From Paguma larvata (Eukaryota; Chordata; Mammalia; Carnivora; Viverridae): a stretch of 64,000 bases of DNA. This document shows, in pieces, positions 5,186 through 48,314 of the stretch. The position numbers and the translations under genes were made by a program. Under the pieces are notes generated by a model, which did no database searches, had not been told where the DNA came from, and worked only from the letters and a program-made list of their open reading frames with translations. The DNA is taken from NCBI GenBank assembly GCA_030068075.1, contig CM057841.1, positions 2,974,565-3,038,564 on the forward strand. Direction: 5' to 3'. How positions within the stretch are numbered: position 1 is the stretch's first letter; each line of letters begins with the position of its first letter.

Positions 5186-5189
5186 AATT

Positions 5190-14920: not shown

Positions 14921-14955
<35 letters not shown>

Positions 14956-19863: not shown

Positions 19864-20092
19864 TGGGCTCCTGGGGGGCTCAGTCGGGGTGCCCACGGAC
19901 TCAATCGGGTGACCATCAGACTCTTGGTTTCAGCTCAGGGCATGATCTCACAGTTTGTGAGTTTGAGCCCCGCATTGGGCTCTGCAGTGAGCACAAAGCC
20001 TGCTTGAGATTCTCTCTCTCCCTCTCTCTCTGCCCCTTTCTACTTGCACTGTCTCTGTCTCTTCAAAATAAATAAATAAACTTAAAAAGAGA
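19864..20092 (+). mobile_element. Feliform tRNA-type SINE
   Basis: Head GGGCTCCTGGGGGGCTCAG. It carries a short internal duplication of the head region (two 'ctcagtcggg'-like blocks at 19880-19915) and a GA-rich tail end. Confidence 0.8.
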
Positions 20093-20589
20093 GAGAGAGA
20101 GAGATTCCAAGCACTTAAGAGATTAGCTCCCAGGAGCCAGAGACAAAGACCAGCCACATTCTTTACTATACAAACAAGCCCACATGCTTGTTGGAAGAAG
20201 CCAGTTCCTTGCTGGCTGGAGACAGTCGTCGGTTCCTTGCCAAGTGGGCTTTTCCGAAACAGGGAGTTCACATCATCATCCAAATGCACAATCAAAGAAG
20301 GTAGAAAAAGCCAGCTGTCAAGATGGTAGTTGTACTCTTCGGTAGCATAACTGCCGAAGTGACATCCATCTCCTTTGTCATATTCTGTAGGTTAGAAGCA
20401 AATCGCCAAAACCAGGGGAGGGGATGACCCAGGGGCATGAATACCAGGAGTGAGAACAGTTGGAGGTGACAGGTCACAGCGAAGGCCTTGCTCACGCCCA
20501 CAAACTTGTGTAAGGTGTTGGGACAGCTTTGTGGCGAGAAGGGAGCGTGAACAGAAGAGCTGCAGTCAAGAAAGGCACTGAGCGCTTGT

Positions 20590-21140
20590 CAGGAAGGAAG
20601 CAGGAAGTGGTACAACCCCCTTGGAAAACTGTTCAGAAGTAGCAAATGAAAGTAAGCATACACCTGTTCTTTGACCTGGCCAGCCCACAATTTATAATCC
20701 AGGGAAGAGTGTGCACACGTGCCCATGTCTGCAAAGACATAGCCAAGAGTGTTCGTGCAAGCTGACCCACGGAAGCCGCAGCCTACAAACAACCCCACTG
20801 TCCATCCCCTGGAGAATGGATAAACCACCGAGGCACGCACGTGAATTGGAGTAATGCTCAGCAGTAAGAAGGGAAGAAAACACAACTACGTGTAACGACA
20901 GGAGTAAACTTCAGGCACGACGTATTTGGGCGAAAGGAGCCAGACACAGAAGAGAACGCGTAGGGTGGCTGCATGTATGTGAGGGCACTGTGAAGAACCG
21001 GCAAGACTCACCCAAGGTGACAAAAAGGCAAAACAAGAAGGATCTCTGCGGACGTGGCGGCTGACTGAGAGTGTCACAGGGAAACCTTCTGAAGTGCTGG
21101 AAATACTGTGTTTATTTGGATGGTGGTTATACCAAAGGGG
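20590..21140 (+). mobile_element. Old L1 3' fragment
   Basis: Typical L1 3' series: 'cccccttggaaaactgttca', 'gaatggataaaccaccg', 'gtaatgctcagcagtaag', then the 'gggatggtggttatacc'-like end. No open frame. Confidence 0.6.
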
Positions 21141-21268
21141 ACAGGTAGAGATAGATTAGTGAGATATCTGTGTATTCATATCTATATCTACATATCTGTA
21201 TCCGTCAATCATCTGTCTGTAGTCACTTAGCTGCACAAGATTGTGCATTTTACTCTGTGCAAATGATC

Positions 21269-21502
21269 TCTCATTTATTTATTTAAAATAATTTTTTAAT
21301 GTTTTGAGAGAGAGACAGAGTGCAAGCAGGGAAGGGGCAGAGAGAGAGGGAGACACAGAATCCAAAGCAGGCTCCAGGCTCCAAGCCGTCAGCACAGAGC
21401 CCGACATGGGGCTCGAGCTCACGAACTGTGAGATCGTGACCTGAGCAGAAGTCGATGCTCAACTGACTGAGCCACCCAGGCGCCCCGATACCTCTCATTT
21501 AA
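21269..21502 (-). mobile_element. Feliform tRNA-type SINE with target-site duplication
   Basis: Inverted copy ending GAGCCACCCAGGCGCCCC. Flanked by CTCTCATTTA on both sides (about 21268 and 21492). Confidence 0.9.
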
Positions 21503-22389
21503 AAAATAAATTTTTGGAAGAAGGAAACAAGTCTTCATTGGAGATTTGAGGAAAGGGATCCCAATTTGCCTAGTGCCCCAAGGCGCTCTCCTGTCCATCA
21601 TCCATCTCCTTGTTGGAAGTTCTGGTTGCCGGGCTCCAGGTGCTCTCCTGGTTATGTCTTAAGGGTCAAGTACACACAGGTTTCCTGGGGCTGCTCCATC
21701 TGGCTGGAACGACCCTCATTTAGGGCTCTGATGTCCAGCTCAGCATAAGTCACTCCATGTGGTTCCTCAGCTCTTGAGACCTGGGATTCTTCATCCTGAG
21801 GGTAAGCAGGGAGAGAAGGATCAAGCATCCCCTGGAAAGAGTGTTGGATTGTGTAGATTTAGCGTTTGCGATGACAGTGTGGTAGACAGCTATGTTAGGA
21901 AGAGTCTCCTGCCCTTCGAGTCCACATGCAATCCCTTTCCCTCTCAAAGGTTGGCGGGACCTGGTGACCAACATCTGTCAATCGAAATAAGCAAAAAGGA
22001 TGGGCTGTCGTGTGTCGTGTCCAAGATGAGGTTATGAAAGACTAAGGTTATGACTTCCATCTTGTTCACACCTGATCCCCTCACTCATGCTGATCAGCCC
22101 AGCTGCTGTGTTATGAGCTGCCCTGTGGAAAGGTCCATTTGGGCAGGTGGTCTCTGGCCAACAGCCAGCAGGGACCTGAATCCCGCCACCCATCACCTGA
22201 GTGAGTAACTGTGGTTAGTCAAGCCTGAACCAGCCCTGGCCAATGCCTTTGTCCCAGCCTTGTAAGACCCAGCAAGAGACCACCTGGCCAAGTTGTTACC
22301 ACCCGGATTCCTGCCCGCAGATGCTGGGAGATCCTAAGTGTTGCCTTGAGCCACTGCAAGTGGGGATGATTTGTTATGAAATTACAGGT

Positions 22390-22670
22390 AATTCCTGTAA
22401 ACAGCCATCACGTAAGTGTGAACAAGATGTCCAGAGCAGGCAAATCCTTAGGGACAGAAAGCTAGCGGTTGTCAGGGGCTTGGGGTGGGCTGTGCGGGTC
22501 CAGAAAGACTTCTTAGAGGGTGTGGCGTTTCCTTCGAGGTGACGAAAATGTTCTCGAACTGGATTCATGGGGGATTATTGCACAACACGGTGAAAATTCC
22601 AAAAGTTGTGAATATCCCAGGTTAAAATGGTGGATTTTAGGTTATGTGCATTTCACCACAATTAAAAAAA
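22390..22670 (+). mobile_element. Old L1 3' fragment
   Basis: L1M-like end: 'ggttgtcaggggcttgg', then 'ggattattgcacaacacgg' and 'tgcatttcaccacaattaaa', followed by an A-rich tail. Confidence 0.55.
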
Positions 22671-22699
22671 AAAACTGAACTGTAAAGGATAAAATAAGG

Positions 22700-22865
22700 G
22701 TTAGTGTTAATACCTGTGCTGTGTGGGTACTTCGCAGTAGGGGCTTTACAGAGAGATCTTACCGTATTTTCCTAAATGGCACCAAGACGTGGGGCATATT
22801 GTCTCCGTTGTCTGCATGAAGACACTGAGGCTCAGGGTGAGAAAGTCACTCACCAGAGATTATAA
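22700..22865 (+). mobile_element. MIR fragment
   Basis: Diverged MIR core pattern: ...gaagacactgaggctcaggg...aaagtcactcacc. Confidence 0.55.
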
Positions 22866-22992
22866 CCGGTGGTTTTTATTGACAGTAGCTTCAGGGTGCT
22901 GAATGCTTACGGCGTGCCTGAGATCCCACTGACCGTTCTGTGTCTCTGAGCTCATTAAACCACCCCATGAATCCCAGGAAGAAGGTGATGTA

Positions 22993-23216
22993 AGGGCCAC
23001 CTGGGGGGCTCAGTCAGTTAAGTGTCCAACTTCGGCTCAGGTCATGATCTCGCAGTCTGTGGGTTTTGAGCCCCACATGGGGCTCTGTGCTGACAGCTTG
23101 GAGCCTGGAGCCTGCTTTGTACTTTTTGTCTGCCTCGCTCTCTGTGTCCCTCCCCTGCTTGCGCTCTGTCTCTGTCTCTCAATAAATAAACGTTAAATAA
23201 ATTAAAAAAAAAAAAA
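22993..23216 (+). mobile_element. Feliform tRNA-type SINE
   Basis: Head GGGCCACCTGGGGGGCTCAG. The flanks both carry GTGATGT, a likely short target duplication. Confidence 0.88.
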
Positions 23217-23519
23217 GTGATGTTCATCCCGTATCACCTGGGAGAATGTCCTCAGAAAGGACACAAGATGGAGGTCCCCTGGCCAGAAAAGGCACAGAAG
23301 GGTCAGACCAGATTCTCCTGGAATGCAGAATGAGGGTGGGGGTGGATGGATGCGGGGGCCCAGACCAGCGACAAAACCTGAGGGAGGAACGGAGAGCCTG
23401 GGACGAGGGGGGGACGGGAAATGTCTGCAGGGGACACTCACCGAGGCAGGGGGACGGCTCACCGTGGCTGCGGATGTATCTGGGAGGGAAAAGGATCTGC
23501 CATTGCTTCACCCCCAGAC

Positions 23520-23900
23520 CCCAGGGGCTAACTCTGCACACACGACCTGCCCCCGTGCACATTCCCCTGACGCACCCTCACATGCACACACTTGCATGCA
23601 TCCTCTCACACACATGCGTGCACACACGAATAAGGCGTGCATGCGACACACACGCACCCCCACCTTCGCGTGCACACGGACATGGAAAACGTGTGTGCAT
23701 GTGCAGCACCATACACAACCATACACACGTCTATGCCCATGCACACACGTTCACACGCATCCATGCCTCCCTGTACGCCTACACGTGCAGACTCACACAG
23801 GCACAACTGCACAAGCTTATGTGCGCCCAGCGAGCATGCATGTGTGTGCACGCCACACGCATACGAACACGCACACTCACACGTGTACCCACCACCGCTT
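23520..23900. repeat. CA-rich purine-pyrimidine alternating tract
   Basis: Irregular CACACGCATGCAC sequence over about 380 bases. It creates long low-complexity open frames rich in His and Thr on one strand and Cys and Val on the other; these are not genes. Located beyond the 3' end of TARM1-like copy B. Confidence 0.8.
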
Positions 23901-24360
23901 GCTTTCCCAGGCTGATTACTCGTCCCCACTTTTTCAGGTTCCTTAGAAGAGCAGGAGCTGAAAGAGAGAAACGGGGAGGCTTTGGGGAGGAAGGGAATTG
24001 GAGCGAGACATCAGGAACATCGTGGGGAGGCGAGGTGAGGCGCCAAGCACGACTAGTGTGAACCAAAGACCCCCCACCTCCTCCACGCTCGCACCCCCCT
24101 CCCTAGGGTCCCCAAGTCATTCGGTGCTCAGCAAAGGCTTGAGAGCTGAGGAGGACAAGTGGTCGGGGGGCAGTGTGGTCCATGAGGCAAGGGTAAGGAG
24201 AGAACATTGAGTGAGCAGCGGAAGGTGGCCACGAGAAGAGAGGACGTGGAGAGACACTCGGGGATGGGCGTCGGGGCTGGTTGGGGGCGCAGGAAAGGTT
24301 CAGGGGAGAAAGGTCTTAAATGGTCAAGGCGACAGTGGGAGGAGGGTTCTCCGAGAAGCT

Positions 24361-24392
24361 CTACCATTTGGTCTTCTTGTCGAGGGCTGCCC
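24361..24392 (-). CDS. Copy B putative exon 7 (basic tail)
   Basis: Acceptor TTATCTCCAG, then GGGCAGCCC. Phase 1 entry gives R-AALDKKTKW and stop. Read in the other frames it runs on, so this depends on the phase of exon 6. Confidence 0.6.
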
Positions 24393-27300
24393 CTGGAGAT
24401 AAAGAGACAGAGACGGGGTTAACCCTGTCGTGTTACTTCCCCGTTCTGTTTCTCCCAATTCCTCCCAGACACTCGGCCCTCGTTTTCCCGAACTCACGCC
24501 GCCGCCGCCGCCGCCGGGTGTATTTGTAGACGAGGAAGGCTCCCAGCAGGATGAGAAGGGCGAAGACCGCGGCGAGGGTGATCCCCGTGGTTCCTGGGGA
24601 GGGGAGAGTGGGTGAGAGGGCCAGGCACGACACAGGTTCTGCTGCCTCAGTGTGTCTCCCGTCGCCACCTTCCCACCACGTGCTGGAGATCTCACGACGT
24701 TCTCTTCACACCTACGAGTATCCCGGGAGAGCGACGGAGTGATGCCCATGTCACAGATGCAGGAGCTGGGCGTCAGAGAGTCGAAGCACCCTTTCCAAAG
24801 TGGCCCAGCTAACGAGTGGGCAGGGCCGCGCCCCGAATCCTACCCGCCTCGGGAGACCTCGCACTGAGCCACAGCCTTCAGGCGTCACCACAAGACAGAC
24901 GGGCACCCTCAAGAACTTTCCCAGGTGTGGACAACACGCGACGCCACAAGGACGTCTCATCCCACGCACGGGTGAGCGGGCGTGAGCTCTATGCTCTTAC
25001 CGACTCCTGCTTCTGCCTCCTTGGGAGATTCCGTTTCAGGTTTATCTAGAAGAGAGAATTCTAGAGTTAAATTTTAAATTTAAATCAAATGTAAATAGAA
25101 TTTAAAACTCTATGCCTTTATTTGCAAAGGCATGTCTGTGTAGTAAAAGTATAAAAACCTGCACAGAAATAATACCTTCAGGACGGAGGGTTCTGGAAAG
25201 GGGAAAAATAACGGGAGGACTTTCTTTACTCGTGGAAAGAAAACAGCTTTGGGGCAAATACGACGAAATATGAACAAGTATAATTATGGGTGGTGGATAT
25301 GTGACTATCTGCTATTTGTTATTTCTATTAGTATTTTTCAGATTTCTCAAAAGAAAGGAAATTCTTTTTTTTTTCTCAGGTTTTATTTTTTAAATTTATT
25401 CTAGAGTGTGTGTGTGTGTGTGGTGGAGGGGCAGAGAGAGAGGGAGAGAAAAAGAATTCCAAGCAGCCTGCGCACAGACAGTGCCACGGACAGCGTGCGG
25501 AGCCCAGTGCAGGGCTCAATCCCACAAACTGTGAGATCACGACCTGAGCCGAAATCAAGAGTCGGATGCTTAACTGACTGAGCCACCCAGGCGCCCCAAA
25601 AGAAAGGTAATTCTTATCAGCCATTGTGCTGGTTTGTGGAGGGAAATTTTTGTGAGTTTTAGGTTTATCCAGTAAACAAGATGGGATGCAGAAAAAAAAG
25701 GCAAGTGTATTCCAGAAATGTCAAGACTCCACTGGAAGACCCCAGACTCCCGCGTGGGCAGGTGTGATGGTTAATTTTATGTGTCAACTCAACTAGGGCT
25801 ACGTACCCAGTTACTTGGTCAAATACAAGTCTAGAATGGTTGCCCGAAGGGTGGCACCTGAAACTAATATAACGCTGTAGGTTGGCTACACTGGAATTAC
25901 AGTAAAATAAAGTAAATGCAATCTTGGGTAAAATTTATTAAAAACAAAAAGGTATGATTAACACTTAAGGCAATAGAGTTTGAGCAGAGCAGATAATGCT
26001 TTATGATGTGGGTGGGCCTCATCTAATCAGCTGAAGGCCCAAGGAGCCAAGACTGAGCTCCCAATGAGGGTGAAGGAATTCTGCTTCCGGCTGCCTTCAG
26101 AGTGGTCGTCAGCTCTTCCCTGGGTCTCTAGCTTGATGGCCACATGAGTGGCCCAGGGTCACACAGCTGGTGCGTAGCAGAGCCAGGGGCGGGGACTCCA
26201 GCCATGGTTCCTGCAGCCCTGCTGATGTGATGACACTCACCACATCACTCTTTGTCACCTTCATCACCCACAGCTGCGCTGGCCCCGCCCCCACGAGCTT
26301 GCAGACGCCATCCCTGCCCTCAGCCTTACGCTGCAGAGAAGGCAAGCCCAGGGGGCCTGTTACTCCTGACCACTGTCGCCTCTGTTCCCTGCGTTGCCGC
26401 CTGGCCTGTGGTTCTTCACCTCCCTGCCTGCACGGCCGCACCGTCAGGAGGTGGGACACCGTCTATCCCAGCCTCCTCCTGCCGACGCAGCCTCCCCCAC
26501 TGCCGGCTGCATTCGGCTCTCCTCAGAACCGGAGACTGCACTGATCACGTTCAAACTTCAGAAATGCTGAGGAAGCCCCGCGAACCGTCAGGCTCCTGGG
26601 GTCGCTTCCAAAGAAGTCACTGGGAACCAGGAGACCAACCAAACTTCGGAATAAAGGGAGAAAAAAAAACCCCAAACATCACAAGTGGCCTTCAGGGAAG
26701 ACAGGTGAGGCCAGTATCGTTGGTAAGTATTTTCTTAAACAGCTACTGGCCTGGGGCCTGTGGTTTAAGTAGCTCAAAGCTTCAGGAATTGGAGGGGAGT
26801 TTGGTCTTCGCCTGTAAAATCCGTGCAAGAACTCAGGTGGCTAACTGGCAACTAGACGTAGGTCTATGGGAGGATTTTCTTTTCTTGGGCGCCGTTGGTA
26901 TCGCGGCAGGATGAGTCTTGGTGGGGAGGGGTCCTGTGCGTCGTAGGGTGTTTGGAAGCGTCGTGGTCTCTGCCTCCTAGATGCCAGGAGCTCCCCCGAC
27001 CCCCAGCTCCCATCACCAAAAACGTCTCAGACATTGCCATTTGCTGCCGAGTGGCAGAATCGGCCGCAGTGGACAACCAGCGGCCAGAGGAAGATAAGAG
27101 GTGACTCTGAAACGAGTGACTTCTCTGTCCTGTCCCCTGTCAGGATTCCTGCCACCCACCTTGTCCCCACCTCCTGCCCTTGGCCAGTCAGGTGACGCTC
27201 ACATCCCAAGTTACACATGCTGGCGTAGCTACAGGGTCACGGTTCTGACCCCTGTAAGAGCCACATAAAACCGTAGGGTTTATAACAGGGCTCTGGCCAA

Positions 27301-29339
27301 TCCCAGAGGGAAACCCTTGGGCTCCGTTGTCAGTAATCTGTCAGTGCACCTGCCAGACACCCCTCCCCCGCCCCGTGACGTCCCCCTCTCTTCCTCCGGC
27401 TGTTGCCCTTGGCGACAGCTGCCAAGATTGGAACTGTGGCTGGAGGCAGACAGGAAAGGTCGACCTTGAACTTAACAGCAGCTTCCTGGGTCCTTCCTGC
27501 TGAAATGTTCAGGCACTGATATATTCCTGTCGGAAGCAGGAATATTTATGATCACGGGGCAAAACTGAGAAGTGTCGGCATATGCCCGGGAAAATAAAGA
27601 AGTGGGGGGGAAATGACTCACTAGCTGCGGAAGAACCCAAAATTTTGTAAAATTTCCCCTTCCTACGGAGAGCCAGTCTGGCTTGTGGTGTTTATTTTTC
27701 CCTTCCGTCTGTTTTATCATCATGTTTTGGAGAGAGCACCTCATCTGCACTTAACCTTGTCACGTACAATTGAACTGAGTTAAAGACACAGACATGTAGG
27801 GGCGCCTGGGTGGCTCAGTCGGTTGAGCGTCCGACTTTGGCTCATGTCATGATCTCATAGTTCATGGGTTCGAGGCCCAAGTTGGACTCTGTGTGTGCTG
27901 ACCGCTCAGAGCCTGGAGCCTGCTTCCAGTTCTATGTCTCCCTATCTCTCTGCCCCTCCCCTGCTTGTACTCTCTCTCTCTCTCTCTAAAAAATAAATAA
28001 ACATTAAAAAATTAAATAAACAAAAGGCACAGACATGCACCCTTGGCCTTTTTAGAACCCGGAAGCCCTTAAGAGGTCATGGAATTTTCCACTAATATTT
28101 CTAATTCGTTATAACGATAAGGATATTTACCGGTACCTTTCGAGGGATACACACGCCCTCTGTTTCCTGGAAAGTCTCCCCTGAGGAATGCAGTTCTTGG
28201 TAAAGCTGCTTCAGTAGTCGGAGGAAGAAGTTTTGAGTGTTTCGTAATGATCATAATGGCAAATCCTTAGGTAATATTTTGGTGTCCACTGGACACAGTT
28301 CAGAAGGAATTTAGGTAAAATAACTCTGCAAAATCTCAACCACGAGTCCCTTGTGTCGGTACTACTATCACCCCCAGCAGACAGAGGGCAGCTAAGGAAG
28401 CTGGAGGAGGTGGTTTGTGAGTTTCTGGGTCCGGCCAAACTCCAAACAGTTACAATTATCTGCAAAACCAGAGCCCGTACACACACTTCCAGACGGTGGG
28501 GCCACGTACCCAAGTGATGGGCGCCCGGCCTTGTTCACATGGTGCTGGTTGTGTGGTTGTTCCCCCCGCCCCCCCACCTTTCTCCCGGTTTCCTTCCTCC
28601 TCCCTGGAGGGGACAGCGAATGTCCTTCACATTGAAGGCGTGGAGCAGGCGGCTCAGATGCAGGACTCCCTGCCTCACCCCTGGGCTCCACGGCTCAGCG
28701 TGGGGAGAGAGAAACACTCTCCTTTACCCCGTGGTAAAGGAGCCTGCACCTTGGGGTTTTCTCGCTCTGCCCAGGGGTCGTGAACCTGAAGCAAACACGC
28801 TTGCTGGGCATACCTCCCCCTCGTCACCGTCTCAGTCCATTTGGGCCGCTCTAACAGAAGGCCACAGGCTGGGGGGCGGATGAGCAGCAGACACCTTTTT
28901 CTCCCAGGTCTGGAGACCAGAAGTCCGAGACCAGGGTGGCAGCATGGTCCGGGGAGGGGCCTCTTCTGGGCGGCCTCTTCTCGAGCCTCACGTGGTGGAA
29001 GGGGAGAAGGGAGCTTCCGGGGCCTCTTTTAGAAGGGTGCTGATCTGATGAGGGCTCCACCCTTATGACCTAAGCACCTCCCAGAGGCCCCCACCTCGTA
29101 ATGCTGTCACGTTAGGGGTCAGGATTTCAACCTGAAATTGGGGTGGGGGAGGTGGACACACACCTTCAGCCCGTGGGATCAGAGGGCGGCGAGTCTCGTT
29201 CCTTTAGGAAGTGCTCATTCCCCTCCTACGTTCCAGTCGCCCTGGGTGGAGCTGGGTTTTCCTGTGTGGCGTCCTCCCATGAGCACTTGCTGGGAGTGAT
29301 CTAGAGGCTGAGCTGACCAGGACCGTTCTCTGTTCTCCC

Positions 29340-29377
<38 letters not shown>

Positions 29378-32300
29378 GTGTCTGTCTGTGTCTGTGTCTT
29401 GAACTGGGTCTGGGAAGGAGGGCCAGATGCTTCTCTAAGAGTGGAATTTATGAGCTACAAAACTCAGTTCTTAAAAGCCAAGCTTTCTGCCCAAAAGAGG
29501 GAGCTCGTCCCCACTAAAAGAGAACGAAACAGGGGCACCTGGGTGGCTCAGTAGGTTAAGCCTCTGACTTCCGCTCGGGTCATGATGTCACAGTTCGTGC
29601 ATTCGAGCCCTGCAAAAGTCAGGCTCTGTGATGACAGCTGCTTCGAATTCTGTGTCTCCCTCTCTCTCTCTGTCCCTCCCTGGCTCTCACTCTCTCTCTC
29701 TCTCTCTCTCAAAAATAAACATTAAAAATTTAAATACTTAAGATGGTAAATTATACTTTATGCACTTTTGCCATGACTTTTAAAAATCGTTTCTGTCAAA
29801 AAGAAAGAAAAGTCTCGGCAGGAAGAGAAAAGCTCGACTTAGTTGAGCTGAAGGCAAGAGTGCTAGAGTCCCAGTGAAAATGAAACAGATTTTCTGTTTT
29901 TGAGTCTTTCTCAGAGAGATGCTCCTGGGCCTTTGTTAGTCTCTCCCTCCTCCTCTGCCTTCTTGCCGGACAAGGTGTCATCCACACTTTAGTATAAATG
30001 AATTGAGCCCTGCCCAGGAGACAGGCAATGACTTTGTGGCTACATCTTATTTCCTGGCTGGGGGGTGGGGGTCAATTATTACAGATCCCTCGTGCTCCAG
30101 GCCTCGCCCCCTCACAACACAGCTGGTCCCCTCCAGTGGGAAGCCCCCCTCGCAGCCTCCATTTATGTGATCTGCATGATCCGTGCTCCCTCTCTCGGCA
30201 GGAGGTCCTCTGTGCTGTCCCACAGAACCCTGGCCCTCCCTCGCTTCTTCCTAAATGATTGCTCCAAGCTGCGGGGTCTTGTGGAGACAGACTGCGCCAG
30301 CACCTGAGCGGCAGGTAATCCAGCTGGGGTCCTCCCGATGGTGAAAACCTCACCTCTCACCCGGATCTCCAGAGCATCGCTGGGCTGTGAGGCCCAGAAA
30401 GGAGCCCAGGTCTGGAAGTACACACAGCTGTAGTTCCCGGCGTCACCGACTGTCACAGTCTGCAGGGAGAAGTCTGTCTCCATCCCGACTGGAGTCCGGA
30501 GCTGGATGGGCTCTGCCTCTCCCGCCTTCAGTAGAGCGAAACTTACAATACTGAAAACATTGCCTGGGCTCTGGCACTGCAGGGTCACGTTGTCTCCTGT
30601 GGTCACCACACCCCTTTGGTGGGCTTGCAGGGAAGGTTTAGGGTAACCTCCTGTAAGGGAAGGGGGGCTCTGAGGTCATGGGGAGAAGCCGGGGTCCCCC
30701 ACTCACCCTTGTTCTCCTGCAAGGGTTCCCGCTGAGTAGTGTGGGACACAACAGATCCCTGGTGTCACCCTCTCTCGACTCTGACTGCAGGAAGGAGGTC
30801 CCCTCCCCACAAGCCCAGGATGAAGCCGACCAAGTCATTCTGTTGCTGTGTTTCTCCATGTCTGCCATCCCCTCCCCTCCTCTGGTCCCTCCCCTAGGCC
30901 CGTCCCTGCTCCTCACCTGTCACCAGTAGCAGGACTATGTCACTGGGCGGTGATCTTATGGAGGGGACGCCTCGTGTGTAGAACTCACAGGTGTAGGTTC
31001 CAGCATGGCTGGTTCTCAGGTCAGTGAGGTGAAATTCAGCCAGGCCCTCTGTGGAAGCCAGTGATCGGGGAAAATCCAAACGAACTATTCCCTTCTTGAA
31101 AGCAAAGTCGACGTCCTCAGTCGGGCTCCGACACTGCAGCGCTACGTTGCTCCCGGGAGCCACCACCGAGCTGGGCCAGGCCCTGAGGGAGGGCTTGGGA
31201 AGGGGCTCTGGAAGGAAGCAGATTTGGGGACGGGATTTGGTGCCCTCACCTGCTCTCAGGAAACCCCTTTAAGGAAAGAGAAGGGATGCGGGGAATTTGG
31301 AGGGAAGGAGAGGGATGGTTTAGTTGTAGGAACGCTCACCATCAGTATCCCCGCTTCCTTGGCCGGCGCACAGCCCTGCAAGAGAACCGTGTGTCCGTGA
31401 GACCTGAGCCCCGTCCCGAGGGGCCTCTCCAGGGTGACGGCCACTGAGACCAGACCCTGGAGGTCACGCTCACGGCCAGTCCCAGCCTCCTGCCCGAGAA
31501 CCCATCTGGCGTGGGCCTTGTGTTAATTTCCTACAGCTGCCGTAGCAAATTATCAGAAACTTGGTGGCTTGTGACCCCACAGACTTACTGTCTTGCAGTT
31601 CTGTGGGTTACAAAAGTCTCAATGGCTAAAACCAGGGTCTCTTTGGGGCTGCCTTCCTTCTGGGGGCTCTAGACGAGAATCCACCTCTTGGCTTTTTCCA
31701 GCTTCTAGAGAGACCCGCATCCCATCATGGCGGCCTCTTCCTCCGGCTTTAAAACGGACAATGGTTGGTGCACTGGCCCCCTCTTCCGCCTGCTTTGCTG
31801 TTTTAAGGACCCCATGGTTATGCTGTGACCACCCACCCAGATAATCCAGAAGAAGCTGCCTACTTCAAGGTCAACGGATAGGCAAGTCTAATTCCGCCTG
31901 CCGCCCTGTATGCGCTTCCTTTGGCACGAAAAGGAACGCATCCACAGCCTCCGGGAGCCGGGACGTGGAGTCAGCTGGGGAGATCCCTACCCCGTGCTGG
32001 CGGACATGTAGATACCGAGAACACAGTCCTTAGTGCTGAGATACTTCTGTCTGCCCTCAGGGAATGGCCTTAATGCATCTCGGACATTATGGTTGGCCAT
32101 GAGTCATCTCCTTGATGCTCCCAAGTCTCACAAATCTAAGGTTGGTATTACTTGCAAGGGTGAAGTGTACACCCCCCACCTGTCCTCTCTGGGGTCTTAC
32201 GTTCAGCTCTAGAGCAAAGTGACCCCGAGACACATGTTCCTGCATGTCAATATAGGTGTTCTGGCTTGATTCGTATAGAACGGTGGGTCTCTACTGGGGA

Positions 32301-34655
32301 CAGATTTCCCCATACACACACACACCAAGGCCAGTGGGCACTATCTGAGACTTTTTTAAGCAACCTGCAAGTACATAATACTGTGTCGCCATCTGTAGGC
32401 GCAATGCTGTACACCAGAGCCTCAGAATCACTCGTCTCCGAACCGCAAGCACATACCATTGGTTCAACGTCTCCCTCTTCCCACCACCCCCAGCTCCTGG
32501 CGAGCCCAGCCCAGTGTGTGTTTCTACAAGTTCAACATTTTTAGATGCCACATGTAAGTGAGATCATACAAGTATTTGTCTTTCTCCGTCGGACTTGTTT
32601 CACTCAGCATCACACCCTCAAGGTCCATCCATGTTGTCGCAAATGGCGGGATTTCTTTCTTTCTCACGGTGAACAACATCCCCTTATATACAACATGCTA
32701 TGTCTTCTTTCTTCACGTATCCGTGGGTGGACAGCTATGTCATTTCCATGCCTTGTGGATAATACCGCGACGAATGTGGGGTGCCGATAGCCCTTCAATT
32801 TCCTGTTGTCATTTCCTGCTGATACACAACCCCAAAGCGGGATGGATGATCGTAGGGTAGTTCTATTTTTAGCTTTCTGAAGAACCAGCCTCCAAACTGT
32901 TTCCCCACAGTGACTGCACCAGTTTGCATTCCGGCCAACGGCGCTCCGGCCAACATGGGCTCCCTTTTCGCCACGTCCTCGCCAACACTTGTCTCCTCAC
33001 GAGATGACAAGGGTTCTGACAGGGGTTGAGTGGAAGCCACGGAGAACCCGTAGCCACAGAGCCCTTCCGAAAACATTGCCAGACATTTCCTAAGAGGGAT
33101 GCACTTACCTTCTCGTGGTCTTGCTGACCATGACTCCCTTCATTCAGCCTCCAGACAGTTCTGCCTCCCCATCCCCCCACCCACCCCACCCCCCCGCTGC
33201 CTGTGGGACCTTTTCGATTCCCCCGTATGGCTCCATGGAGAATTACGGTCTTGGGCACCGTGCAGACCAGAACCTGAGCTCAGCTTTTCCACTTAGTAGC
33301 TGAGTCGCCTTGGCACAGACTTCAGGCGTGGTTTTCAGATTCCTCAAATGCAGTATGGGGAAGGGAACTAGTTTGGAGAATTTCTCTAAGAGATGTACGG
33401 TGACTCCAGGTCATACGATAACAAGAGGGTTTCACTGAGCCTGTGTGAGAAAGTCTCTCTCTTCTCCGTTCCCAGCTCGCTCTCTGCCAAGCCCGTGGAA
33501 GATACCACAGCCGGGGGCTCGTCTGAAGCCAGCCTCTCGCTTCACTGCTACCTCTCAGAAACAAGACCGGGGAACACCGGGGTCGGTTCAGGTCTGTTTT
33601 TAATGAGGGACACTGATTTTCCCACTAATATGGAGTTTTATAGGTCTTCTTTTAAAACAGAATTGAGAGGCGCCTGGGTGGCTCAGCTGGTTAAGCGACT
33701 GATTTCAGCTCAGGTCATGATCTCAAGGTTCGTGGATTTGAGCCCCATACTTGGCTCTGTGCCAACATTGCCAGGCCTGCTTGGGATTCTCTCCTCCCTC
33801 TTTCTCTGCCCCTCCCCCACTCCCAGTGTCTCTGTCCCTCTCTCTCTTTCTCAAAATAAATAAACTAAAAAATTTTTCAATAAAAAAAATAAAAATAGGG
33901 TTGAGTATACTTAAGTCTGGGTGGCTCAGTCAGTTAAGCATTCAACTGTTGGTTTAGGCTCAGGTCATGATCTCGTGGTTCTTGAGTTCAAGACGCACCC
34001 CAGGCTCTGAGTTGACAGTGTAGAGTCTGCTTGGGATTCTCTCTCTCCCTCTCCCTCTCTCTCTGTCCCTCCCCCACTTGTTGTGTCTCCCTCTTAAATA
34101 TAAATAAACTTAAAAATTTTTTTATATAATAAAATAGGTGTGCCTGGGTGGCTTGGTCAGTTAAGTGTTCAACTTCAGTTCAGGTCATGATCTCATGGTT
34201 CCTGGGTTCGAGCCCCGCGTCAGGCTCTGTGCTGATAGCTGGGATCCTGGAACCTTCTTCTGATTCTGTGTCCCCCTCTCTCTCTGCACCTGCCCTGCTC
34301 ACTCTCTGTCTCTGTCTCTCTCTCTTTCAAAAATAAATAAATGTTAAAAAAATTTAAATAATAAAATATAGTTGAGTATAAAAATAATAATATAAAAACC
34401 TGGATGTGTCACAGACAGAGGGCAAAATGTCGTTGGGAAGTTGGGGATGACCGAGTTTGGGGAAACAGGAAAACGTGTGTAAAGCATCCTGGTACCTAAC
34501 ATGGATTCAGGGAATGGAAGGCTCTAGTCTGTGCTTATTCACCCCCATCCCACTACCGGCCCCGAAGGTCCCACCAACTCCAACTGCCGCCGCGGCCCGG
34601 CCCTACCCCCACAGGGCTCACCGGTGCAAAGCAAGGTCAGCAGCTGAGGCATCAT
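24361..34655 (-). CDS. TARM1-like receptor copy B with a different TM and tail
   Basis: Second TARM1-type gene. Seven inferred exons on the minus strand: 34622..34655, 31340..31375, 30917..31207, 30354..30650, 25001..25045, 24498..24593 and 24361..24392. They total 831 bases, 276 residues, and all phases join. The first four exons have the lengths of copy A (34, 36, 291 and 297). They encode a signal peptide (MMPQLLTLLCT), a mini-exon and two Ig domains with all four cysteines. The last three differ from TARM1: an acidic stem (DKPETESPKEAEAGV), a TM helix (TTGITLAAVFALLILLGAFL) with no charged residue, and a polyarginine stretch with the tail AALDKKTKW. Without the TM arginine it should not couple to FcR gamma, and no ITIM is seen. 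The Ig part is secure. Joining it to the 24-25 kb exons across a 5.3 kb intron is inference from phase and the lack of another gene. Confidence 0.72.
24498..24516 (-). repeat. CGG trinucleotide repeat inside coding sequence
   Basis: About six CGG units on the coding (minus) strand, directly before the GTGAGT donor. They encode the polyarginine run after the TM helix. Confidence 0.8.
24498..24593 (-). CDS. Copy B putative exon 6 (TM plus polyarginine)
   Basis: 96 bases; acceptor CTCCCCAG, donor GTGAGT. Encodes G-TTG, about 22 hydrophobic residues, VYKYT, then six Arg codons and the first base of a seventh. Confidence 0.72.
24720..24845 (+). mobile_element. MIR fragment
   Basis: MIR core pattern 'cccatgtcacagatgcagga', followed by the 'gtggcccagctaacgagtgg' block. 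Lies in an intron of copy B. Confidence 0.55.
25001..25045 (-). CDS. Copy B putative exon 5 (acidic stem)
   Basis: 45 bases, phase 1 to 1; acceptor TCTCTTCTAG, donor GTAAGA. Encodes DKPETESPKEAEAGV. Human VSTM1 also has a short stem exon starting DK after its Ig exon, which gives weak support. Confidence 0.68.
25380..25597 (-). mobile_element. Feliform tRNA-type SINE
   Basis: Inverted copy with a (GT)n block at 25407-25421 in the tail-proximal part; ends GGCGCCCC. The flanks AAAGAAAGGAAATTCTT and AAAGAAAGGTAATTCTT are a near-perfect duplication. Confidence 0.92.
25765..26110 (+). mobile_element. Old interspersed repeat, family not assigned
   Basis: Starts with the widespread mammalian repeat motif 'ggttaattttatgtgtcaac' and contains 'gggcctcatctaatcagctg'. 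A second, split copy is at 37.86/39.78 kb. A middle portion (25880-25960) may be a separate insertion. Confidence 0.55.
26230..27790. other. GC-moderate intronic sequence, no exon recognised
   Basis: Inside the long putative intron of copy B. The 220-codon frame at 26252-26914 has no domain. A short MIR-like end lies at 26130-26230. Confidence 0.4.
27785..28040 (+). mobile_element. Feliform tRNA-type SINE
   Basis: Body 27799-28022. Flanks AGACACAGACATG and AGGCACAGACATG are a target duplication with one change. Confidence 0.92.
28040..29335. other. Intronic sequence with an old repeat at about 28830-29120
   Basis: The second part (from 'tttgggccgctctaacagaa' to 'cgtaatgctgtcacg') resembles a common old mammalian repeat whose family I cannot name. 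No exon seen. Confidence 0.4.
29343..29372. repeat. (CT)n microsatellite
   Basis: About 15 CT units following AGT; continues into a short TCTG-rich stretch. Confidence 0.9.
29532..29732 (+). mobile_element. Feliform tRNA-type SINE
   Basis: GGGGCACCTGGGTGGCTCAG head; slightly shortened middle (missing part of the GAGCCTGGAG block). Confidence 0.88.
30354..30650 (-). CDS. Copy B exon 4 (Ig2)
   Basis: 297 bases, phase 1 to 1; acceptor TTACAG, donor GTGAGG. Open throughout, both cysteines present. Near-identical to 9219..9515 except for a patch near the C strand. Confidence 0.92.
30917..31207 (-). CDS. Copy B exon 3 (Ig1)
   Basis: 291 bases, phase 1 to 1; acceptor TTCCAG, donor GTGAGG. Open throughout. 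Its first N-glycosylation sequon is NVA here, against NVT in copy A. Confidence 0.92.
31340..31375 (-). CDS. Copy B exon 2 (36-bp mini-exon)
   Basis: Acceptor CTTGCAG, donor GTGAGC. Encodes LCAGQGSGDTD. Confidence 0.88.
31520..31800. mobile_element. Old interspersed repeat, family not assigned
   Basis: Pattern 'gttaatttcctacagctgcc ... ttggtggcttgtgacc ... ggctttttccagcttctaga', a familiar mammalian repeat whose name I cannot assign. Lies in intron 1 of copy B. Confidence 0.5.
32525..33075 (-). mobile_element. Old L1 3' end
   Basis: Inverted L1 3' series: 'ttcactcagcatcacaccct', 'ccatgttgtcgcaaatgg', 'tagttctatttttagctttc', 'ccacagtgactgcaccagtt'. Confidence 0.7.
33667..33890 (+). mobile_element. 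Feliform tRNA-type SINE
   Basis: First of three SINEs in a head-to-tail cluster; GAGGCGCCTGGGTGGCTCAG head. Confidence 0.9.
33912..34128 (+). mobile_element. Feliform tRNA-type SINE
   Basis: Head slightly truncated (AAGTCTGGGTGGCTCAG); second of the cluster. Confidence 0.85.
34137..34366 (+). mobile_element. Feliform tRNA-type SINE
   Basis: Third of the cluster; head GTGTGCCTGGGTGGCTTGG. Confidence 0.88.
34622..34655 (-). CDS. Copy B exon 1 (signal peptide)
   Basis: Encodes MMPQLLTLLCT plus one base, then donor GTGAGC. Same 34-base length and phase as TARM1 exon 1. The upstream sequence shares weak blocks with that upstream of copy A exon 1 (cttgactc, ggcaggaac, ttttc, cagttc). Confidence 0.78.
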
Positions 34656-35502
34656 GGCGGCCCCCCCAAGCCTCCTCCAACGATCTGCCTTCAGTTTTGC
34701 TGTTGGTGGTAAGCCAGAACGTTCTCTTGACTCTGGGACAGGCAGGAACAGCTTTGTTCCCAGGTTTTCAGTTCTCTGCTCTACATACCCACGCTTGGTG
34801 TCTTCTGGTTTCTATCAGGAAGTGACTATTGCAGCAGGTTCTCAAGCCACTTCCCACAGGCTTGGTGCACAGCACACCAGTCAGTCCCCCCACTTCTGAG
34901 GCACACCCATGAATATGCAAAGCATGGGAGAAATGGCCAGCCTTTGTCCCCTTCTGCAGAGTGACAGAAAAGAGCTGGGCCCCCAGCAATCCCGAATGAG
35001 AGCTACATGTCTCTCCGCCTTCTTTCTGGTCACAGGATATAAGCAGAAGTGATGCGAGCAACTTCTGGGTAACGTCCCAGGGACCCTGAGGGCAGGGTTA
35101 GAGCCAGAGCCGAGGGCAAAGAGGTGAGAGGTCACAAGGCATCAGGGACAGCTGGGAATCTGGGAGAACCAAACAAGAGGCCCTATAGAGAGAAAGTAAG
35201 AGAAAAGAACACTCAGTGGCAGGCATACAAGGAGCTTGAAGAAGACGAAGTTCTGTGGTGAGAGCTTGAAGGTTGTCTGCTGTGGGAATGTGGTGCGAAC
35301 TACCTCCTCGGTGAAATCTCTTGTGGAATCTTCTGGTCATTAGATCTCTGATGGGAACCGGCTCTTAAGAAGAACTTGGGAATCCTGGCTGAGGTGCAGA
35401 CAGAAAGAGAGACAACCCAAGCGGTGGACCCAGGCAATGGGCAGGAGCTGATGCATGCATGGAAAAATCTAGAAGGGTAAATCTAATATTTATATTTATT
35501 TA

Positions 35503-35721
35503 TTATTTTTTTAATGTTTATTTATTTTTGAGAGACATAGAGATAGAGACACAGCATGAGCGGGAGAAGGGCAGAGAAAGAGGGAGACACAGAATCCGAG
35601 GCAGGCTCCAGGCTCTGAGCTGTCAGCACTGAGCCCAACGCGGGGCTCGAACTCACAGACCGTGAGATCATGACCTGAGCCGAAGTTGGCCGCTTAACCA
35701 ACTGAGCCACCCAGGCGCCCA
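35503..35721 (-). mobile_element. Feliform tRNA-type SINE
   Basis: Inverted copy. The flanks AAATCTAATATTT on both sides (35479 and 35721) are a clear target duplication. Confidence 0.93.
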
Positions 35722-35932
35722 AATCTAATATTTTTAATGTGTTATTCTCTGAGTGGTGGAATTGTGCTCAATATATTTTTTTTCCTATTGCTTCTATGTG
35801 TGTCCTAAATTGGCTGGAATTGCTGTGTTCATTTGATCCCTTTAAATGGGACTGAAATTTAAGCCTTTAGAAATTTTAAGTGAGGTGCGGTGGGATGACA
35901 AAACCTCAAAGTTTAAAAAAGGAGCAAACAAG

Positions 35933-36146
35933 AGGTGCCTGGGTGGCTCAGTCAGTTGGGTGTCCGACTTCAACTCAGGTCATGATCTCACAGTTTGTGG
36001 GCTCAAGCTCCATGTCGGGCTCTGTGCTGACAGCTCAGAGCCTGGAGCCTGCTTTGGATTCTGTGTCTCCCCCTCTCTCTGTTCTTCCCCTTCTCATGCT
36101 CTGTCTCTCTGTCCTTCAAAAATAAATAAACATTAAAAAAGTTTTA
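35933..36146 (+). mobile_element. Feliform tRNA-type SINE
   Basis: Head AGGTGCCTGGGTGGCTCAG; target duplication around GGAGCAAACA / GGAACAAAC. Confidence 0.9.
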
Positions 36147-36379
36147 AACAGGAACAAACCCTCATTAAACTGAGAGTTCAGGACCGCTGAATTCAGGGAC
36201 AAATATGAGGACTTTGACATAAACACGCAGACAGAACACACACATTCCTTTCCCCAAACTCACTGAAAGACAGAAACAGGATTTATGAGGAGGACGTAAG
36301 CTCAGAAGGGAAAAGAGCAACTAGAGAGGAGCTAACGCATGACAGGAAATGTTGACACAATCATGGAAACTAGAAACCC

Positions 36380-36707
36380 AGCACACGCGTGCCTATAGTG
36401 GGTCACCAAGGAGAAAAATCACATCCCCAGACCGTGGAACCTCATAGCAGCTCGAAAATTGAATCCATGACAATCCAGCAATTCCACCTTTGGGTATACA
36501 GCCAAAAGAATGGAAAGTGGGGTCTTGACACTCCACATTCATGGCTGCGTTATTCACAATAGACAAGAGTGGATACAACCCAGGGCACCTGGGGGGCTCA
36601 GCTACTTACACGTCTGACATTGGCTTAGGTCGTGATCTCCTGGTTCATGAGTTTGAGTCCAACGCTGGACTCTGTGCTAACAGCTCAGAGCCTGGAGCCT
36701 GCTTCGG

Positions 36708-36743
<36 letters not shown>

Positions 36744-37130
36744 GAATAAACATTAAATCTATTAAATATTATTCAGCCTCCAAAAGGAAGGAGATGTTAA
36801 CACATGCCACGGCATGGGTGAACCTTAAGGCCTTGATGCTCAATGAAATAAGCCAGTCACGAAAAGACAAACACTGTATGATTGCACTTGTGCGAGGTCC
36901 CTAGAGCCACCCAATCTATAGAGACAGGAGGCAGATGGAGGGCGCCGGGGGCAGGGGAGGGGGAGGGGGAGACGGTGTGTGACGGGCACAGAGCTTCAGT
37001 TGTGCAGGATGAAAAGAGCCCCGTGCATGGTGAGGATGGCAGCACTAGACTGTGAAGGTATTAAACCCTGCGGAACCATGCATTTGAAAATGGGGAAGAC
37101 GGTAAATGTATTTTAACACAGTTTTTAAAA
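36380..37130 (+). mobile_element. Old L1 3' end split by a SINE
   Basis: Blocks 'aattccacctttgggtatac' and 'ggctgcgttattcacaatag' stop at 36583. They resume after the SINE with 'attattcagcctccaaaagg' and 'aaataagccagtcacgaaaa'. Confidence 0.75.
36583..36762 (+). mobile_element. SINE inserted in an L1 fragment
   Basis: GGGCACCTGGGGGGCTCAG head, (CT)n at 36711-36738, tail AATGAATAAACATTAAA. Confidence 0.9.
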
Positions 37131-37446
37131 AGTAAAGTTTCCGGGTACCTCCGAGGGGGGCAGGGGGATTGACCGGATGTGTGTGGAGGAAGCAGACTTC
37201 CTCTCCGTGCAGCTCAGCCAGGACCACCTACGATATCTGACCACCAGAGTTACTGATCTCCCCTCCCGGGGAATTGGCAAGACCACGTCTCCCCACCTCT
37301 CACCAGAAGGAGGTGAGCAGAAATCACACAGGCCATTTTCAGGCTTAGGGCTTCACAGGGCAGGCACGGTCCTGCATGCTTACCGTGCTGGCTTACTCTT
37401 ACTGCTGGCTGGAAACCCCAGGACCACCGAGCCTGAATCGGCAAAT

Positions 37447-37668
37447 GAAAACAACACTCTCTGGGGCGCCTGGGTGGCTCAGTTGGGTAAGTGTCCAACT
37501 CTTGCTTTTGGCCCAGGTCATGATCTCACAGTTTGTGGGTTTGAGCCCCACGTTGGGTTCTGCACAGACAGTGTAGAGCCTACTTGGGATACTCTCTCTC
37601 TCTCCCTCTCTCTGCCCCTACCCCCCCCACCCCGTCTCAAAAATAAACTTGAAAAGAAAACAACACTC
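37447..37668 (+). mobile_element. SINE with target-site duplication
   Basis: Body 37463-37655. GAAAACAACACTC occurs on both flanks. Confidence 0.93.
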
Positions 37669-37859
37669 CAGATCTATACTTTTTAATACTAGCCACTAGC
37701 CACGTGTGGCTATTTACACTTAAAGGGTTGATTAAAATTACATTAAATATAATGGTCCTTGGCCTCACTGACCACATTTCAAGTGCTCAGAGTAGCCACA
37801 TGGTAATTACCGTATGAGACAATGAAATTGTCGAGTATTTCCATCATCCCAGAAAACAA

Positions 37860-38050
37860 TATTGATGTGATGGATAACTTTATGTGTCAATTTGATTGGG
37901 CTAAGGGATGTCAGGGTAGCTGGTAAAACATTCCCTCTGGGTGTGTGTCTCTGAGAGATTGCCAGAGATTAGCATTTGAATTAGGAGACAGTCTCCTATT
38001 GGTCTCTTGAGGACCCCAACAGAGCAAAAAAACGGTAGAAGAAGGGAGGA
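37860..38050 (+). mobile_element. 5' part of an old repeat interrupted by later insertions
   Basis: Starts 'tgatggataactttatgtgtc', the same family as at 25765. The matching 3' end ('ttctctagagaaccctaataca') lies at 39760-39780. Two SINEs and an LTR sit between. Confidence 0.5.
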
Positions 38051-38183
38051 CCGTCTCTCACTCTCTTTTTTTAATATTTCAGATAGTCTTTATTTCTTCA
38101 AATTTATTTATCAGGAGTGACTGAAATAAAAAATAGAATTGAGTCCCATTATCATGGAAATGGCTTTAAGAGAAAACAGGTCA

Positions 38184-38280
38184 GGGCACCTGGGTGGCTC
38201 AGCTGGTTAAGCATCCACCTTACGCTCAGGTGCTGATCTCACAGTTCGTGAGTTTGAGCCCCTCGTCTTGCACAGAGCAA
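38184..38280 (+). mobile_element. Truncated SINE
   Basis: About 95 bases of the head part only; ends at GAGTTTGAGCCCCTCG. Confidence 0.8.
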
Positions 38281-38305
38281 GAACTTAAGAAGCATCAGCT
38301 TCATG

Positions 38306-38520
38306 GGCCCCTTGGGTGGCTCAGTTGGTTACGCGCCGGACTTCAGCTCAAGTCGTGATCTCACAGTTCATGGGTTCAAGCCCTGTGTCGGGCTCTGTGC
38401 TGACAGCTCCGAGCCTGGAGCCTGCTTTGGATTCTGTGTCTCCCTCTCTCTCTGCCCCTCCCCTGCTCATGCGCTATCTCTCTCTCCTTCAAAAATAAAT
38501 CAACATTTAAGAAATTTTTA
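38306..38520 (+). mobile_element. Feliform tRNA-type SINE
   Basis: Head GGGCCCCTTGGGTGGCTCAG, tail AAATAAATCAACATTTAAG. Confidence 0.88.
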
Positions 38521-38806
38521 AAAAGAGAGAAAACTGGTCAGATGAATATTATTGCTTTCCATTTTCAACCAGTAAACAGTTGCCATTGTTCAATAGACAG
38601 CCATCAGTCTGACAAGAATGCTCAAGGTCTGTTATACAGTACAACATGCCTGTTCACAGGGGGGAACACAAGGAAATAACTTAATGGGAACTTCTCAGTT
38701 TCATCCTACAAGAAAAGCACAGAAGGACCAGCCATGCGTCTGAGAACACTGGGCCACGCCCCCTTGGGAAAAAGCTTTGGCTCCTTCATCACAAGCACTC
38801 TTCCTC

Positions 38807-39192
38807 TGTAAGGGCAAAACGGGACTGATTCCATTTTGCTTAAGGGCAAACTGGGACTGACTCCATTGTGTTTCCTGTCTTCCACCCTGAGTCCCCAGTG
38901 CCTGCTCAAAACCTGCAACTTCCCGGTTCCAAAAGAACCACGCCCAGTGACCTATGGACCCTTCCTCAGCCAATTGGCTAGGGTCACGACCATCACCCCT
39001 CCCACTGCCCCTAGACTCCTTTAAAACTATTGTGTTTTGGGACCGGGCCCTCTCTCTCGACCCACTGCTGCGCCACTGCTGCGTCGGTGCGGTAGGAGAT
39101 TGAGCTCGAGCTAGCTCAATTAAAGGCTATTTGTTCTTGCATCAGACTCGGCTCCCTGGTGGTTCTTGGGGTCCCCGAATTCTGGGCATAAC
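38807..39192 (+). mobile_element. Solo LTR of an endogenous gammaretrovirus-like element
   Basis: Begins near TGTAAGGGC and ends ...GGGCATAACA. U3-like part with CCAAT (38970) and a TTTAAAA box near 39020; R with AATTAAAGG (39117); U5 with a 'gcatcagactcggctcc' block. No retroviral coding sequence on either side. Start not certain. Confidence 0.65.
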
Positions 39193-39559
39193 ACCTCCAG
39201 CAGTCAAGGGCGCCTGTGCACATGTCAGTGCCTTCGTGCCCCGAATGCATCATCACGCAGTGACGAATGGTGTCAGAGCCGGAGGAAGTCAACCCAGCAC
39301 CCTCTGTGACAGAGCATCACCCTCTGTGATGGAGCTTCGTCCAGCTGATGAAGATAGAGTGTTCTTAGCATCTGGAAGCGTTCCCTCCGCAGTGTCATAG
39401 GTGCCGAGGTAGGCAGCTCGGTGGGTGATGACAGCCTGCGTGGACATTAAGGCCTTGGTACAGGCCTTTGGGTGAGTCCCATCGGATTTGAGACCTTAAC
39501 CCCGCAGTCACCGAGGCCTCCGACTTCCCTTTGAGCTCCAGATTTGCCCACATCAGCTG

Positions 39560-39785
39560 CTAGACGTAACCCTCTCTCTCTCCTGCCTTCAGACATCGGA
39601 GCTCCTGGTTCTCTGGATTTCGGAGTGCAGGACCTACACCAGCGGCCCCCTCCTTCTCAGACCTTCAGTCTCAGACTGAATTATACCAGCACCTTCCCTG
39701 GTTCTCGGCTTTGCAGATGGCGGGTGTACACATACATATGTACATCCTGTTGGTCTCTTTCTCTAGAGAACCCTAATACAGTTGG
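39560..39785 (+). mobile_element. 3' part of the interrupted old repeat
   Basis: Contains 'gacatcggagctcctggttc' and ends 'ctagagaaccctaataca'. Partner of 37860-38050. Confidence 0.5.
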
Positions 39786-39916
39786 GCAACACTGCCCTAG
39801 GGGGCAGCAATGATAGGACAGAAGAAATCCAGGTATCTGTAGGACCAAATGGATAGAGTCACCTGCTGATCTGCTATGCCCACCTCAGAGCGTCATGTGA
39901 AAAAGAAAGAAAGTGT

Positions 39917-40102
39917 AGGAGAGCCTGGGTAGCTCAGTGGATCGAGCTTCCGGCTCTTGATTTTGGCTCAAAAAGTCATGATCCCAGGCTCATGGGATGG
40001 AGCCGCACATCAGGCTCTGTGCTGAGTGTGGACCTGCTTGGGATTCTCTCTCTCTCCCTCTGCCCCTCTCCCCGACACTGCCCTCTCTCTCTCTCTCTCA
40101 AA
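39917..40102 (+). mobile_element. Feliform tRNA-type SINE
   Basis: Diverged older-looking copy; head GAGCCTGGGTAGCTCAGTGG. Confidence 0.85.
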
Positions 40103-48177: not shown

Positions 48178-48314
48178 TCAGGGCCGGATGCTACATGGGA
48201 TGCGAGTCCGGCTGCGCCAGTCCAGAAAGACCAGTATGCCCAGGGAGATGAGCACCAGGCCGGCCACCCCCAGGCGGACGAGGTTGCCCTGTGTGTAGTC
48301 CAAGGCGCCTGAGC
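48178..48314 (-). CDS. OSCAR: OSCAR exon 5 (TM and tail)
   Basis: Acceptor CCCTGCAG; 137 bases to the stop. Carries the TM arginine and the tail. Confidence 0.95.

Follow-up and report, generated by a model that had tools for sequence, protein, structure and literature searches.

The receptor TARM1 has been described in mouse work as associating with FcR gamma and binding collagens, and the inhibitory collagen receptor LAIR-1 has been suggested as its opposite number (PMC7782728). Human VSTM1 (SIRL-1) has nine exons, with the transmembrane (TM) segment in exon 5 and two immunoreceptor tyrosine-based inhibitory motifs (ITIMs) in exon 9, the second of which is the atypical HxYxxL (PMC11848704), and in humans and pigs its gene is adjacent to TARM1 (PMC6775213). 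The Siglec-11/Siglec-16 pair, for which gene conversion is named (PMC5701461), and the CEACAM paired receptors (PMC5112662) are reported cases in which an activating and an inhibitory receptor resemble each other in their ectodomains. In this study, we analyzed a 64,000-nucleotide stretch of the Paguma larvata genome (contig CM057841.1, positions 2,974,565 to 3,038,564; hereafter, the window), in which two TARM1-like genes, copy A and copy B, are adjacent on the minus strand.

Copy A appears to be an ordinary TARM1 gene, whereas copy B is probably a 10-exon gene for a two-immunoglobulin (Ig) receptor of the inhibitory type, combining a TARM1 ectodomain with a stalk, TM helix, and ITIM tail of the VSTM1/SIRL-1 type, and the two copies have probably been kept matched by re-copying. 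Like LAIR-1, which has been proposed to pair with TARM1 (PMC7782728), copy B would be an inhibitory receptor, but LAIR-1 is a separate gene, whereas copy B lies next to TARM1 and carries nearly the same ectodomain. The Siglec-11/16 and CEACAM pairs belong to other gene families, whereas copies A and B are Ig receptors of the leukocyte receptor complex (LRC), in which we infer conversion.

Gene model of copy B

Copy B forms an open, in-phase model of 10 exons and 357 residues on the minus strand, with no stop or frameshift inside the exons. Exon 1 (34622–34655) carries the signal peptide start MMPQLLTLLCT, and the MMPQLL start also occurs in hyena, seal, and bear entries. It is followed by the 36-nt exon 2 (31340–31375), by exon 3 (30917–31207), which encodes Ig domain 1 (Ig1; Pfam ig), and by exon 4 (30354–30650), which encodes Ig domain 2 (Ig2; Pfam Ig_2). 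The lengths of these four exons, 34, 36, 291, and 297 nt, are common to copies A and B, and the borders of exons 1–6 are GT/AG with matching phases, in agreement with the original prediction that the four exons of B match those of A in length and phase. Exon 5 (25001–25045) encodes the acidic stalk DKPETESPKEAEAGV, for which homologous stalks were found in carnivore and horse entries, and exon 6 (24498–24593) encodes an uncharged TM helix followed by polyarginine. The TM helix contains no charged residue, and the TM arginine of TARM1 is missing.

The original prediction had gone on to end copy B with a third 3′ exon at 24361–24392 and a short basic tail. Its first two 3′ exons join in phase as proposed, and the swapped membrane anchor, with its acidic stem, uncharged helix, and polyarginine, was upheld, but the third is better read as the 28-nt juxtamembrane exon 7 (24365–24392), beyond which the gene continues. 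Residues resembling GAAxxKMTK occupy the place of exon 7 in the homologues. Exon 8 (23893–23957; SCSSKEPEKVGTSNQPGKASG) is in phase with the phase-2 end of exon 7, and exon 9 (23442–23479; DTSAATVSRPPAS) coincides with a short tblastn match at 23442–23480 (E = 0.17). Exon 10 (21652–21795), which encodes the motifs VTYAEL and CVYLTL and then a TAA stop, was placed by tblastn at 21655–21795, with 87% identity to the hyena homologue over 47 residues (E = 5e-22). Its two tyrosine motifs and its stop position agree with those of the homologues. VTYAEL fits the ITIM consensus (V/L/I/S)xYxx(V/L/I). From its sequence, copy B is thus probably an inhibitory-type immune receptor gene with a TARM1-like ectodomain, beside the activating TARM1.

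A TM exon of the A type hidden in copy B was ruled out by searches with the TM exon of copy A. Across the whole window, tblastn at E ≤ 0.05 matched only copy A itself (7532–7672) and the gene that we take to be OSCAR-like (48196–48321), and blastn against 21000–30353 produced just two short hits, of 12 and 15 bases (E = 0.15), which bears out the earlier observation that no such exon is visible between 24 and 30 kb. A hydrophobicity scan of 23000–30354 with a threshold of 1.8 returned 24436–24705 at 2.54, corresponding to the TM exon, and 28214–28534 at 1.87. Since copy B lacks the TM arginine of TARM1 and OSCAR, FcR gamma is probably not used, and the proposal that B has left this signalling mode appears sound.

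A CGG repeat that closes the TM exon (24498–24520) encodes the polyarginine run of copy B. At the corresponding place, the run is shorter in hyena and meerkat, and one arginine or none is found in jackal, bear, and seal.

Homologues of the anchor and tail

A database search with the short-tailed B protein matched 242 proteins, of which the best 120 were considered and 32 were inspected. Among the matches listed, a homologous stalk and TM helix leading into a tail that contains VTYAE(L/I) and CVYxx(L/V) were found in hyena, seal, bear, jackal, horse, bat, and manatee. This occurrence across carnivores, horses, bats, and manatee indicates that the anchor swap is old rather than recent. The B-like proteins are labelled "TARM1-like" or "VSTM1-like" in the database, mostly as TARM1 or TARM1-like, and the full-length homologues contain the signal peptide, Ig1, Ig2, stalk, TM helix, and ITIM tail in one model. 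In the gray seal entries P0121 and P0123, Ig1 or exon 1 is joined directly to the stalk and tail.

Five stalk/TM sequences of the B type, used as BLAST queries, revealed a B-type TM segment in 44 of the 132 proteins retrieved, and 33 of these reached an ITIM-type exon: 28 end in a TYAE tail and five (P0061, P0064, P0108, P0117, and P0127) in variants such as VMYAEL and VTYVEL. A-type TM segments were recognized by motif in 34 of 122 retrieved proteins. In the 133 sequences comprising the 132 retrieved proteins and copy B, TYAE tails numbered 34 (31 VTYAEL and one each of VTYAEI, GTYAEL, and ETYAEL), although these include isoforms of one gene and close relatives and are not 34 independent cases. 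The residue at −2 of the first motif is V in 32 of the 34, and a second motif of the form CxYxx(L/I/V) is present in all 34. Ten chosen tails, when aligned, showed 52–73% identity to that of copy B.

Alternative ends and integrity of copy B

The exon on which the original prediction ended reads ..AAA TGG TAG, and the same letters can be split as ..AAA TG/GTAGAG to leave exon 7. The TAG stop therefore overlaps an in-phase splice donor, and the short basic tail would be an intron-retention product. On a simple matrix, the exon 7 donor, ATG/GTAGAG, is weak and scores 2.8 bits, and that of exon 6, GGC/GTGAGT, has C at −1 and scores 4.9 bits, which makes leaky splicing or read-through to short tails plausible. 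It is nevertheless very unlikely that the main product of copy B ends at 24361 with the tail AALDKKTKW and functions as a decoy or without an adaptor. The reading frame does run open as far as the TAG, the donor of exon 7 is weak, and database protein P0072, encoded on a contig of 1,031 bases, stops at exactly the matching place (DKMNKR), with P0079 ending about a dozen residues beyond it; set against this are the three conserved in-phase exons beyond the stop, the Cys created by the TG/C junction of exons 7 and 8, which is found at the same place in jackal P0010 and dog P0017, and the ITIM-type exon reached by three-quarters of the proteins with a B-type TM segment. The stop was rejected as the end of the gene on account of those three exons, and a minor short-tailed form of copy B is possible. 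Since these exons end in an ITIM and an ITIM-like motif, neither a decoy nor an adaptor-free receptor is supported as the main product, and of the three fates originally offered for copy B, membership of a paired set with a different coupling is the best supported.

The distribution of poly(A)-type hexamers lends weak support to a gene end past exon 10. No AATAAA, ATTAAA, AGTAAA, or TATAAA was found in introns 5, 6, and 7, the introns scanned, which speaks weakly against the short-tailed end as well, whereas five such hexamers occupy the stretch from 21300 to 20696 beyond exon 10. The nearest two, ATTAAA at 21300 and AATAAA at 21283 (minus strand, 21278–21300), are candidates by pattern match only and are located at the end of a repeat.

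Were a transcript to read through past the stalk exon (24940–25000), a soluble form ending KSIELTPAHPCVG would result. The Panthera entry P0008 ends after the stalk in a similar manner, with RSTDLTYTHPGVG, and other predicted isoforms without a TM segment are meerkat P0015 and polar bear P0020.

Copy B might instead be decaying, its splice sites or tail failing so that the product is mostly soluble or short-tailed, and the two suboptimal donors, the polyarginine expansion at the end of exon 6, the read-through stop of Panthera P0008, and the lack of a named felid protein with the ITIM tail, noted below, would suit such a gene. Quite improbable as we consider it, this explanation has to accommodate 10 exons free of stops and frameshifts and an exon 10 that retains both tyrosine motifs and the homologues' stop position.

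Several observations count against a two-motif inhibitory tail as the regular product of copy B. The C at −2 places CVYLTL outside the strict ITIM consensus, so that it is ITIM-like only. Eleven of the 44 proteins with a B-type TM segment (P0004, P0005, P0016, P0017, P0037, P0048, P0059, P0069, P0072, P0079, and P0130) lack an ITIM exon, and in most of them exon 7 or 8 is followed by other sequence. No felid protein with an ITIM tail was present among the named hits of the searches with the tail (8 hits) and the tail profile (10 hits). The leaky donors and the P0072 end belong here too, and the splicing of the exons of copy B in this animal is itself predicted from the DNA.

Kinship with VSTM1/SIRL-1

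The stalk, TM helix, and ITIM tail of copy B are homologous to those of VSTM1, for which a human sequence was used in all comparisons. A profile of ten tails matched the human VSTM1 tail with an hhalign probability of 98.7%, and the score of 89.5 exceeded those of all 60 shuffles in which the stalk, TM, and tail blocks were kept apart, the highest of which was 24.9. With the first 80 residues, excluding the ITIM end, the score was still 46.3 versus a maximum of 28.9 in 60 shuffles. In tblastn, VSTM1 matched exon 10 with 44% identity over 36 residues (E = 5e-4). VTYAEL is common to both proteins, the second motif is atypical in both, and copy B without exon 4, its Ig2 exon, follows the nine-exon plan of VSTM1 (PMC11848704). 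VSTM1-like names are borne by one seal and two bat entries that carry a B-type tail. No primate VSTM1 was retrieved by the search with the B tail alone (E ≤ 0.1, 8 hits) or with the tail profile (E ≤ 1, 10 hits), so copy B and VSTM1 are distantly linked, on the grounds of the profile comparison, their exon plans, and the ITIM stretch that they have in common.

VSTM1 has a single Ig domain (IgV), whereas copy B has two, both TARM1-like. Human VSTM1 is located on the downstream side of TARM1, whereas copy B lies upstream of copy A, between A and the presumed OSCAR-like gene. The two Ig domains and the different position rule out copy B as a straightforward orthologue of VSTM1.

Copy A and the shared ectodomain

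Copy A consists of five exons on the minus strand: exon 1 (16481–16514; MIPRLLPLLCL, its first 11 residues being as in database protein P0011), exon 2 (10207–10242), exon 3 with Ig1 (9784–10074), exon 4 with Ig2 (9219–9515), and exon 5 (7529–7671), which encodes the TM segment with its arginine (GNLIRLGLAAL) and the stop. By this structure, the TM arginine should recruit FcR gamma. Copy B shares the two-Ig TARM1 ectodomain but has no TM arginine, a different stalk, and a long ITIM tail, and its predicted signal is the opposite. In two bat A-type entries, P0107 and P0095 (Saccopteryx, Rhinolophus), Q stands in place of the TM arginine.

The two copies share a single block of homology over exons 2–4, at 9209–10289 in copy A and 30344–31422 in copy B, the low end on the B side lying 10 bases past the Ig2 donor. 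The DNA identity was 93.2% over 1081 columns (about 1.08 kb), and amounted to 83.3% in exon 2, 91.7% in intron 2, 92.4% in the Ig1 exon, 96.2% in intron 3, and 93.9% in the Ig2 exon. The encoded ectodomains are 88% identical, whereas the TM segments and tails are unrelated. Both ectodomains are 74–77% identical to lynx and Panthera entries and are about as distant from them as from hyena, figures that by themselves point to a feliform carnivore, perhaps not the felid assumed in the original prediction. The nonsynonymous/synonymous (dN/dS) values between A and B, 0.072/0.105 for Ig1 and 0.073/0.037 for Ig2, are small numbers that give a hint, no more, that the ectodomain exons were not kept unchanged after the most recent copying. 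Between 1–16000 and 20001–40000, the remaining matches above 60 bits were judged by eye to be dispersed repeats, save one at 68.9% identity between Ig2 of copy B and Ig2 of a third relative, copy C.

In a first tree of 27 ectodomains (two from the window and 25 of 43 candidate database proteins), a sister relationship between A and B from the same genus was recovered for 10 of 11 genera, with support of 0.965–1.0. In an enlarged tree of 33 sequences, to which Equus, Diceros, and Pteronotus were added and from which the Myotis pair was left out because its domain end was not found, the same held for 13 of 14 genera (support 0.83–1.0). The 3′ halves are mutually unrelated and each recurs across orders, so both are older than the similarity of the ectodomains, and gene conversion is the simplest account of how the ectodomains came to be copied between A and B. 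The Pteronotus copies are only 66% alike, and any copying there would be old.

The grouping of the ectodomains by genus, the single block of homology in the window, and Ig1 sequences that are identical in three genera would also be expected if, instead of an old converted pair, A and B were recent lineage-specific duplicates or, in certain species, a single gene ending in either of two 3′ halves. We regard this as unlikely: the A-type TM segment and the B-type tail each recur across carnivores, bats, horses, and others, so that both 3′ halves predate the genus-level similarity, and both exon sets are present as DNA in the window. The identity of Ig1 between A and B in Camelus, Mirounga, and Trichechus may reflect shared annotation; without these three, 11 genera remain in which A and B differ in both Ig domains, and in 10 of them the two are still sisters.

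An old pair matched by conversion is not favored by every observation. Besides the identical Ig1 sequences just mentioned, Mustela is the sole genus that breaks the sister pattern, and some pairs span two species of a genus (at least those of Canis, Camelus, Mirounga, and Equus). Both copies were seen as DNA in the window only, and the Q in place of the TM arginine in the Saccopteryx A-type entry also counts against the proposed pair.

Proposed pairing of copies A and B

Copies A and B show the features of paired receptors, namely near-identical ectodomains, adjacent genes, and signalling parts that are opposite as judged from sequence. In the arrangement that we propose, the two would bind the same or overlapping ligands with opposite outcomes. 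Copy A would signal through the immunoreceptor tyrosine-based activation motif (ITAM) of FcR gamma, whereas VTYAEL and CVYLTL of copy B would be phosphorylated and recruit SHP-1 or SHP-2. The two 3′ halves would have been set up long ago, and the ectodomain exons would later have been re-copied between the genes, keeping the pair matched. No prior account of an ITIM-bearing twin of TARM1 or of TARM1 gene conversion was found in the literature searched, in which subscription journals were mostly not covered.

Other features of the window

Copy C is a decayed relative with two Ig domains on the minus strand at 1876–2929. It comprises an exon 2-like piece, GLCVGQRDT (2903–2929), and Ig1 pieces at 2783–2652 and 2590–2495 with an in-frame stop between them, and the second cysteine of its Ig2 is changed to histidine (NYSHVYY). 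We take it to lie on the side of copy A where VSTM1 would be expected. The presumed OSCAR-like gene, at about 48196–51120 on the minus strand, has a TM arginine (GNLVRLGVAGL), and long repetitive reading frames occupy about 48.5–49.4 kb between its Ig and TM exons. Reading frames at about 54200–58800 on the minus strand are presumably NDUFA3-like and TFPT-like. A tRNA-like match at 51346–51430 on the minus strand scored 31.3 bits against an Rfam cut-off of 29 bits and is perhaps a short interspersed nuclear element.

Implications

The broader idea that many placental mammals carry an adjacent inhibitory twin of TARM1, with one ectodomain repeatedly overwriting the other and activation and inhibition thereby following a single changing ligand or pathogen mimic, seems to us evenly balanced between being right and wrong. 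In mice, TARM1 contributes to arthritis through collagen recognition (PMC7782728), and copy B, if the pairing is true, would be a more direct brake on TARM1 than LAIR-1. Should primates have retained just the one-Ig branch, VSTM1, then work on TARM1 in humans and mice would have been done without its natural brake, and inferences from human or mouse TARM1 to dogs, horses, and seals would likewise leave the brake out. Some of the entries named "T-cell-interacting, activating receptor ... TARM1-like" in bears, seals, canids, bats, and horses would then be inhibitory, and the activating label is likely to mislead where expression data from these animals are concerned. The locus would also provide an LRC example of paired receptors kept together by gene conversion.

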